From: an uncultured Bacteroidota bacterium
GTDB lineage: Bacteria > Bacteroidota > Bacteroidia > Bacteroidales > VadinHA17
Assembly (NCBI GenBank): GCA_937864815.1
Contig: CALMJY010000123.1
Span: forward strand, 1 to 35,219
DNA: 35,219 nucleotides
Direction of reading: 5' to 3'
In this document: positions 20,064-35,219 of the stretch, piece after piece
How positions within the stretch are numbered: position 1 is the first letter of the stretch
Layout of the letters: every line of letters starts with the position of its first letter
The notes under the pieces: generated by a model
Database searches by the model: none
The model's input: only the letters and a program-made list of their open reading frames with translations
What the model was told of the DNA's origin: nothing
Translations under genes and position numbers: made by a program

Positions 20064-20154
20064 TTTAACCACGGAGTTTCACGGAGGTGCACAGAGTTGC
20101 ACTGTTTTAGACTCCGTGAAACTCCGTGAAAACTCAGTGTAACTCCGTGTTAAA
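20064..20154. repeat. Long imperfect inverted repeat, ACGGAGTTTC family
   Basis: aaccacggagtttcacggag… / …ctccgtgaaactccgtgaaaactcagtgtaactccgtgtt. Confidence 0.85.
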
Positions 20155-23297: not shown

Positions 23298-23375
23298 AAT
23301 AATCTCTTTTTTATGAAACTAAATGATTATTTGGAAGAATGCAACATTTCTGAAATATATGTTGGTTGTTTTTTT

Positions 23376-23478
23376 ACCACAGAGTTCACAAAGGTCTTCG
23401 TTTCTCTCAGACAATCACAAAGTTCACAGAGTCATTATCTCTGTGTGCTCAGTGTAAATACTCTGTGCCCTCTGTGGT
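23376..23478. repeat. Long imperfect inverted repeat, ACAGAG family
   Basis: ACCACAGAG (23376-23384) … CTCTGTGGT (23470-23478) with internal cacagag / ctctgtg copies. Confidence 0.8.
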
Positions 23479-23492
23479 TAAAATTATTTAGT

Positions 23493-27919: not shown

Positions 27920-28008
27920 AAGTTTCCCCTCCTTTTGAAGGAGGGGTGGCCGCAATGCAATGTTTATCATAGTATTGCAAAGCCTCAATGCGGCCGGGGT
28001 GGTTGATT
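27920..28008 (+). repeat. 89-bp palindrome-ended element, copy 1
   Basis: AAGTTTCCCCTCCTTTTGAAGGAGGGGTGGCCG – 38 bp – CGGCCGGGGTGGTTGATT. Confidence 0.85.
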
Positions 28009-28200: not shown

Positions 28201-28290
28201 AAATCAACCACCCCGGCCGGGAAATGAACCTTGTAATAATCAGATAATCAATCGTCCCGGCCACCCCTCCTTCAAAAGGAGGGGAAACTT
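28201..28290 (-). repeat. 89-bp palindrome-ended element, copy 2 (inverted)
   Basis: Reverse complement carries the same two end blocks around a 38-bp divergent centre. Confidence 0.85.
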
Positions 28291-33614: not shown

Positions 33615-34667
33615 TCAGTGTCTTCGGATCTCCTTCGCAGCCTCCACCATTGCCATAAACCCGTCAACCGGAATGTACCCCGGAATTGAATTACCTGAAC
33701 CAAGTCCGTAACCATTAGCTTTGGCACGGTATACTGTTCCCATCTCCAGAACATTCCTGTAAACTTCCTCCGGTTTATTAAGGATGATAAGATTAAGATC
33801 AAAGCCTCCAAAGAGGCCTATCCTTGAGGAATATTTATCAATCCACGCTATGAATGGAGCAATCTGATCTTCATTGGAATGTTTGGCATCTATCCCAAGA
33901 CCTATTATTTCATCCATAAGAGGGAAAATACAGCCACAACTGTGAAGAAGAAATTTTTTACCCGAAGAATGAACAAGGTCTATTACTCTCTTATACTGAG
34001 GGAAGATATGTTCTCTTATAATATCGGGCTCAAGCATTGTTGAAGTCTTGTGACCAAGGTCGTCTCCCATTCTGTAGAAGACAAAAAGATCGTGGTAATT
34101 TTCGATTAACCAGCTCCATAACTCCACCCATAGATCACCAATTTTTATAAATAGTTCACGGAAAAGATCCGGATCCATGCATTGCATTACACACAGATAT
34201 TCAAATCCCACAAGGTCCTGACTGGCCTCAAAGATTCCATACCCGCAACCGCCATAAGCCTTCATTCCCTGTGGTAAAGTTTTGCGAATAGCTTCAAAAT
34301 GAGGAATGTAAGTGGTTTTAAAAATCTGAGGAATTTCATTCCATGGATATTTATTGAAATCATCCCTGGTCTGGATCGGTCCCGCCATGCCTCCAAGAAT
34401 GGCGCCATGCCCGGGAAGAATATCGCAAATAGCAGCTTCAAAGTCGAAACCATCATACGTCATATTATTCCAGAAACCAATCACTTTTTTGTAATAACCT
34501 ACAAGGTCATCTCCTTTAAGACCTGCAGGATTTATATCCTCTCCAAGAGCTTTTGAGATAAATGGGGGATCAATGTGATGTTCATATAACGGTAATCTTT
34601 TTGGTCTCTGGTTATTAAGAACTGAGAGTAGATTTGTATAGTCAGGGGAGAAAGAGGGGTCTGTCAT
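33615..34667 (-). CDS. Uroporphyrinogen decarboxylase-superfamily protein
   Basis: LNNQRPKRLPLYEHHIDPPFI; YRMGDDLGHKTSTML; LLHSCGCIFPLMDEI; GLFGGFDLN. Confidence 0.85.
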   Translation of the reverse strand: MTDPSFSPDYTNLLSVLNNQRPKRLPLYEHHIDPPFISKALGEDINPAGLKGDDLVGYYKKVIGFWNNMTYDGFDFEAAICDILPGHGAILGGMAGPIQTRDDFNKYPWNEIPQIFKTTYIPHFEAIRKTLPQGMKAYGGCGYGIFEASQDLVGFEYLCVMQCMDPDLFRELFIKIGDLWVELWSWLIENYHDLFVFYRMGDDLGHKTSTMLEPDIIREHIFPQYKRVIDLVHSSGKKFLLHSCGCIFPLMDEIIGLGIDAKHSNEDQIAPFIAWIDKYSSRIGLFGGFDLNLIILNKPEEVYRNVLEMGTVYRAKANGYGLGSGNSIPGYIPVDGFMAMVEAAKEIRRH

Positions 34668-34702
34668 GTTGTAATAGTGAATTGTTAGAGTTAAAGGTAA
34701 TA

Positions 34703-34740
34703 AGTAATCGGTAATCGGTATTCAGTAGTATTCTGTAATC
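34703..34740. repeat. Heptad array, GGTAATC/GGTATTC family
   Basis: agtaatc ggtaatc ggtattc agtagtattc tgtaatc, 8 bp downstream of the minus-strand stop at 34749. Confidence 0.8.
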
Positions 34741-34748
34741 GGCTGGTT

Positions 34749-35138
34749 TTATTGGGATTTATTACAAAATGTTGAAGATTTATCAATCATAGAATGAAGC
34801 ATCTTACCTATGGATTCACATTTTTGAATTAATTCTTTGGCTATTTTGCTATCAATATAATTACATTCATCAGCTTCTTCAATCCAATGTTGGGTCTCAA
34901 GTTGTTCTGAATCAGCATCTGTAAGCTTAGAAATGAAATGGTTTTCATACCTTCGTTTACCCCAGGCTTCAGCTATCTGTGCTCCAACTGATCTTGAAGA
35001 TCTTCTTATCTGATCAGTCAATGAAAATTTTTCTTCAGAAGGGAAACCTTTAGTGATTATATAGATTTCTTTTGAAACCTCCCTGGCAAGCTTATATACT
35101 TCAAGGTCTCTAAAACTCTTCACATAAACCATATTCAA
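34749..35138 (-). CDS. Four-helix bundle protein (23S rRNA IVP / bAvd-like family)
   Basis: VKSFRDLEVYKLAREVSKEIYIITKGFPSEEKFSLTDQIRRSSRSVGAQIAEAWGKRRYENHFISKLTDADSEQLETQHWI. Confidence 0.92.
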   Translation of the reverse strand: MNMVYVKSFRDLEVYKLAREVSKEIYIITKGFPSEEKFSLTDQIRRSSRSVGAQIAEAWGKRRYENHFISKLTDADSEQLETQHWIEEADECNYIDSKIAKELIQKCESIGKMLHSMIDKSSTFCNKSQ

Positions 35139-35162
35139 ATCAAATTAAATTTCATATCAATT

Positions 35163-35219
35163 CTATACTGATTACCGAATACTGATTACCGAATACTGAT
35201 TACCGAATACTGATTACCG
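35163..35219. repeat. 14-bp tandem array (GAATACT GATTACC)n, continuing past the window end
   Basis: GATTACC at 35170, 35184, 35198 and 35212 with exact 14-bp period; reverse complement of the GGTAATC/AGTATTC heptads. Confidence 0.95.

Follow-up and report, generated by a model that had tools for sequence, protein, structure and literature searches.

IVP genes between complementary short-repeat arrays, a candidate mobile cassette in an uncultured Bacteroidota genome and its relatives

The IVP gene and its arrays in the window

The stretch analyzed here (the window, 35,219 nucleotides) is the complete contig C123 (CALMJY010000123.1) of the 4.66-Mb draft genome, in 348 contigs, of an uncultured Bacteroidota bacterium of the VadinHA17 lineage (GCA_937864815.1), referred to below as the host. 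Near its right end lies a gene of the IVP family, bracketed by two arrays of short tandem repeats that are complementary to each other. The features of this locus are as follows.

34749 to 35138, minus strand: IVP (four-helix-bundle) gene, matching PF05635 with 112 bits (cutoff, 33.8) and TIGR02436 with 104 bits (cutoff, 24); the ATG at 35132 is the likelier start
34696 to 34740 (approximate), plus strand: 3'-side array of the GGTAATC/GGTATTC type, GATTACC on the gene strand (sequence reading and arm comparison)
35133 to 35164, minus strand: short spacer from the 5' array to the start codon (sequence reading)
35165 to 35219, minus strand: 5'-side array, (GGTAATCAGTATTC)n on the gene strand, truncated where the contig ends; the same array opens contig C65
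33504 to 33590, plus strand: single partnerless array of the same family at the far end of the neighboring URO-D gene (sequence reading)

An earlier note on this sequence had described the locus as a four-helix-bundle gene between heptad arrays in opposite orientations and proposed it as a candidate mobile or RNA-structured cassette. The coordinates given there hold with small shifts, in the first position of the 5' array and in the likelier start codon, and so does the bracketing: the array unit is 7/14 bp, the 5' array is (ATACTGATTACCGA)3.9 and continues to the contig end, and the arms show 88% complementarity across 32 nt. Since the window spans a whole contig, the assembly breaks off at its right end, within the 5' array. 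Contig C65 opens with the same array (55-bp exact overlap with the window end), and the next gene on it is a URO-D gene; in relatives, the orthologues of this gene and of the window's URO-D gene are neighbors. C65 is thus probably the next contig to the right, with synteny as the main support for the join, as the overlap consists of repeats. With this rightward extension, which the earlier note had proposed as a way to look for a reverse transcriptase, the neighbors of the IVP gene are URO-D genes, not rRNA.

The gene in the loop matches only IVP and bAvd models; it also exceeds the bAvd cutoff (PF22296, 45.8 bits; cutoff, 40) and falls below that of DivGenRetAVD (34.7 versus 80 bits). One solved IVP relative, 2GSC, is a homopentamer (PMC4990558), and a second solved relative is 2RLD; the predicted model of one IVP from the related genome G001 (pLDDT, 92) matches both. 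Among 210 divergent sequences (window numbering), Q43, E57, and E81 are invariant or nearly so, S50 is conserved in 97% and R46 in 90%, and 90% have N where the window has Q54. Such strict conservation of polar residues suggests a functional site.

Arrays around IVP genes in the host, its relatives, and plasmids

The host genome encodes 10 IVP (PF05635) genes. We read the flanks of all of them by eye, and each has a 5' tandem array and a reverse-complement array just past the stop codon, with units that mostly differ among the loci (GGTAATC, GGTACGGC, GGCGCAAC, GGTGATGA, GGTCTGCT, TCATTCAATAG, and others). The least regular locus, L008, carries both orientations within its 5' flank and scores below the threshold used here. 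The host also contains hairpins without an IVP gene, and these bear units that occur at IVP loci.

We gathered IVP loci from related genomes (112 after additions) and scored each by how well its 5' flank aligns with the reverse-complemented 3' flank of the same locus. Over 94 loci with full flanks, from 30 genomes, the mean flank score was 24.3, compared with 12.3 for mismatched pairs, and the summed score of 2284 exceeded the maximum of 2000 within-genome permutations (1725). Complementary flanks (score of at least 18) were found at 76% of 106 IVP genes and at 3.4% of 178 control genes, which were other genes from loci of the same genomes; arrays on both sides occurred at 86% and 10%, respectively. 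The threshold of 18 was chosen after the first scores had been seen, and at 20 the proportions are 68% and 3.4%. The earlier note had named homologues lacking flanking arrays, and equally common arrays around unrelated genes, as outcomes that would count against its proposal; these checks did not refute it, and the enrichment runs the other way.

At the 81 scoring loci of the relatives, the arms have a median length of 57 nt; in the median, the 5' arm ends 49 nt before the start codon and the 3' arm begins 12 nt past the stop codon. The 5' arm holds more G than C in 73 of these 81 loci and in 62 of 64 loci of the distant set, a G-rich polarity seen in 135 of 145 scoring loci. Left neighbors within 400 nt read towards the cassette in 68 cases and away from it in 14, and in the former the outer edge of the arm lies a median of 3 nt inside the neighbor's end. 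The arms of one locus match each other better than they match the arms of clade mates (25.3 versus 18.8, p = 2.6e-6), which indicates that the two arms change together.

The repeat unit also follows the IVP clade. Between different genomes, protein identity correlated with array similarity (r = 0.293 over 4,125 pairs, after removal of pairs sharing outer-flank homology, so that the sites are nonorthologous), while 999 within-genome permutations gave at most 0.103. An array score of at least 20 was reached by 55% of pairs at 60 to 80% protein identity and by about 4 to 6% of pairs below 40%. Because the 5' flank of one locus was compared with the 3' flank of the other, positional homology cannot create the match. 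The clade table, judged by eye, shows the same trend: GTCNTGCA predominates in a clade of 12 loci from 10 genomes; smaller clades have AGCNCAG, GAAGACC, or GTTGCTG, the window's clade has GGTAATC, and the units of the largest clade (25 loci) are more mixed. A link between protein and repeats, which the earlier note had offered as inference, thus gains statistical support. In G001 (C71), the roughly 14 kb surrounding two window-type IVP genes (L200 and L201) also holds many single GGTAATC-type arrays in one orientation.

In a sample of 198 genomes of the host's phylum, 157 have IVP genes, and 50% of 30 loci sampled over that phylum pass the threshold; the background pass rate is 2.9% for mismatched pairs and 1.9% for shuffled flanks. 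The pass rate is 64% for 77 loci from a collection of named genomes that spans many phyla (among them Flavobacterium, Geobacter, Vreelandella, Clostridia, Omnitrophota, and an ANME-1 archaeon record), although these loci are the best matches to four proteins and therefore not a random sample. A phage search with one IVP returned no match.

Plasmid records with an IVP match number 34. We read five loci, all on complete cyanobacterial plasmids, and their scores range from 28 to 36; the arrays of one (L355) run in the same direction, so the inverted rule fits four of the five. In Nostoc plasmid pNe_5 (L351), the IVP gene and its GGGAGTA-type arrays lie between the ribonucleotide reductase beta and alpha genes. 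In L352, the IVP gene adjoins an AAA-family ATPase gene and a ParB-family gene, and in L354 an integrase-family gene and a hypothetical gene. In L353 and L355, it is flanked by cas6 and cas4, and in L353 cas1d comes after cas4. Earlier scans reported IVP genes near CRISPR loci (PMC3936711, PMC10910872), and the cas6-IVP-cas4 order in two of five plasmid loci may help explain that linkage.

Presence and absence at orthologous junctions

The window cassette aligns with a stretch of G001 (C71) at 74% identity over 509 columns, in an unrelated neighborhood, and the homology stops in the arrays. Given the different neighborhood, we rejected this stretch as the orthologous locus. At the junction of the two URO-D genes, G002 has a different IVP (about 50% identical) with a different array, whereas the junction lacks an IVP in G001, in G009, and in two G052 copies; the G009 junction has neither an IVP nor a hairpin.

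Other junctions show similar patchiness. IVP genes occur around sir2 in 6 of 30 genomes, with differing arrays. The sir2 and ubiX genes overlap by 17 nt in G001, G020, G070, and G074, while the host has a 539-nt gap that holds a cassette. Beside queA, 29 of 30 loci are without an IVP (within the sequence at hand, at most 900 nt and shorter in some), and G008, which is outside those 30, has an IVP there (L094). Behind sir2 in G022 there is a gene-free hairpin whose loop, judged by eye, resembles the leader of that clade. Homology that ends in the arrays, together with differing cassettes or none at orthologous junctions, bears out the description of the locus as a cassette, and the comparison of species supports its being mobile.

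Interpretation and alternative explanations

Support is good for the architecture and for the correspondence of array unit with IVP clade. We postulate, at somewhat better than even odds, that the window feature is one copy of a widespread transposon-like cassette whose IVP recognizes its own array. Such a cassette would be laid out as array, leader, IVP gene, and reverse-complement array, about 500 bp in all, with ends made of tandem copies of a short clade-specific site. The IVP, a pentameric ring in the solved relative, presumably recognizes and binds the array unit of its own cassette at either end. The cassette would move as a unit and come to rest between genes, mostly up against a stop codon, where insertion may do little harm. 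Copies that lose the gene could persist as single arrays or hairpins. Movement might draw its chemistry from host replication and repair or from the invariant polar residues of the IVP. We further speculate, with considerable doubt, that IVPs form a group of mobility proteins that has gone unrecognized. As pentameric four-helix bundles, they would recognize a short tandem DNA code at each end of their own cassette and, through the invariant Q/R/S/N/E/E residues, catalyze or guide its movement; rRNA intervening sequences and the cyanobacterial 7-bp hairpins would be offshoots of this element.

Several observations weigh against the transposon-like cassette. Movement itself was not seen, in that we found no near-identical copies, target duplication, or strain pair, and we know of no catalytic activity in the IVP family. 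A quarter of the relatives' IVP loci fall below the threshold. Of 62 genomes of the genus, 35 contain GGTAATC-type arrays, as counted by pattern searches, and two contain window-like IVPs (>65% identity); the genome-wide association of arrays with IVPs for the GTCNTGCAN clade is only moderate (p = 0.03). On these last two grounds we rejected a strict dependence of arrays on a cognate IVP.

It is possible, although in our view unlikely, that the cassette instead works at the RNA level, like a 23S rRNA intervening sequence: the arms would pair in a read-through transcript, RNase III would cut, the IVP message would be excised, and insertion into operons would be tolerated. Intervening sequences with an S23p/IVP open reading frame are found in the 23S rRNA of Coxiella and Leptospira (PMC4990558), and they resemble the cassette in having an IVP-family frame in the loop between complementary ends, at about 430 to 540 nt. 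In favor of this reading, the stem can fold (-132 kcal/mol for the 530-nt window stretch, z = -4.7 versus shuffles, arms paired), and cassettes often lie between codirectional genes. However, G-U-compatible changes are not in excess among arm mismatches on the sense strand (332 versus 456), which leaves RNA-level selection through wobble pairing, and with it the RNA-structured part of the earlier proposal, unsupported, and the 5' arm typically ends so far before the start codon that a transcript beginning in the leader would lack it. The cassette also differs from intervening sequences in lying outside rRNA, in having clade-specific tandem arrays as its ends, and in occurring many times per genome. 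An Rfam search of the window gave no match.

A second alternative holds that array hairpins pre-exist and that IVP elements insert into their loops, as at the tips of rRNA hairpins. It would fit the IVP-free hairpins of the host and the replacement of rRNA helix loops by intervening sequences (PMC4990558). Yet the G009 URO-D junction and the overlapping sir2-ubiX pairs are IVP-free without any hairpin, which suggests that arrays arrive together with the gene, and clade-specific units would require a separate target for each clade. We think this quite improbable. Still less credible to us is a host function, in which a resident IVP binds intergenic arrays, shapes transcription ends or chromosome structure, and is kept beside its own sites for regulation. 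The match of clade and unit, the arms abutting stop codons, and the abundance of IVP-free arrays would agree with it, but orthologous sites have an IVP in some species and not in others, and the IVPs at one site belong to different clades in different species. Chance repeats near a gene, or assembly error, could be entertained because arrays break contigs and most relatives are draft genomes, and this we reject on the evidence of same-genome control genes, permutations, shuffles, and closed replicons.

The transposon-like cassette that we favor has partial counterparts among known systems. The IVP model from G001 has the fold of Avd, the accessory protein of diversity-generating retroelements (TM-score of about 0.8 against chains 4DWL and 8UB7). 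The earlier note had raised such a retroelement link; for this genome it is not supported, as no reverse transcriptase (PF00078) was found in the host assembly (97% complete), and we rejected the retroelement reading. The IVP gene of L028 (G037, C193) has a reverse transcriptase match some 2.3 kb away, and that locus is possibly a diversity-generating retroelement. Unlike a CRISPR array, the window array has contiguous units with no unique spacers between them. Foldback transposons such as Tetris are eukaryotic and encode a true transposase, of which there is none in the IVP cassette. They resemble it in their inverted ends of short tandem repeats (PMC4079207). The cyanobacterial short tandemly repeated repetitive (STRR) hairpins share repeats of about 7 bp and an intergenic hairpin, a likeness of architecture only, and were described without an IVP gene (PMC2670836). 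Repetitive extragenic palindromes and their associated tyrosine transposases (REP/RAYT; PMC2817692) likewise combine inverted repeats, dispersed between genes, with the gene of a cognate protein, but the cassette protein is a PF05635 four-helix bundle and not a tyrosine (Y1) transposase, and its repeats are tandem arrays.

In the open PMC literature, we found no paper tying IVP genes to such arrays, although a description may exist elsewhere, and the recurring layout, with a unit that tends to go with the type of gene, suggests that the IVP cassette is an undescribed kind of mobile element. The cyanobacterial short-repeat hairpins and the way rRNA intervening sequences arose are long-standing questions; the rule linking IVP clade and array unit can be put to a binding test, with a bearing on both of these and on the function of IVPs.

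Further repeats were observed in the window. Compared with the order in relatives (u413> u350> <u412), the URO-D gene at 33615 to 34667, next to the IVP gene, is inverted; it lies between arrays of the same family, which suggests inversion by recombination between arrays. Gene-free intergenic hairpins with arms of repeated CACGGAG/CACAGAG-type units occur at 20070 to 20149 and 23371 to 23483. A perfect 33-nt inverted repeat, its arms 305 nt apart and each near-palindromic, lies at 27920 to 27952 and 28258 to 28290.
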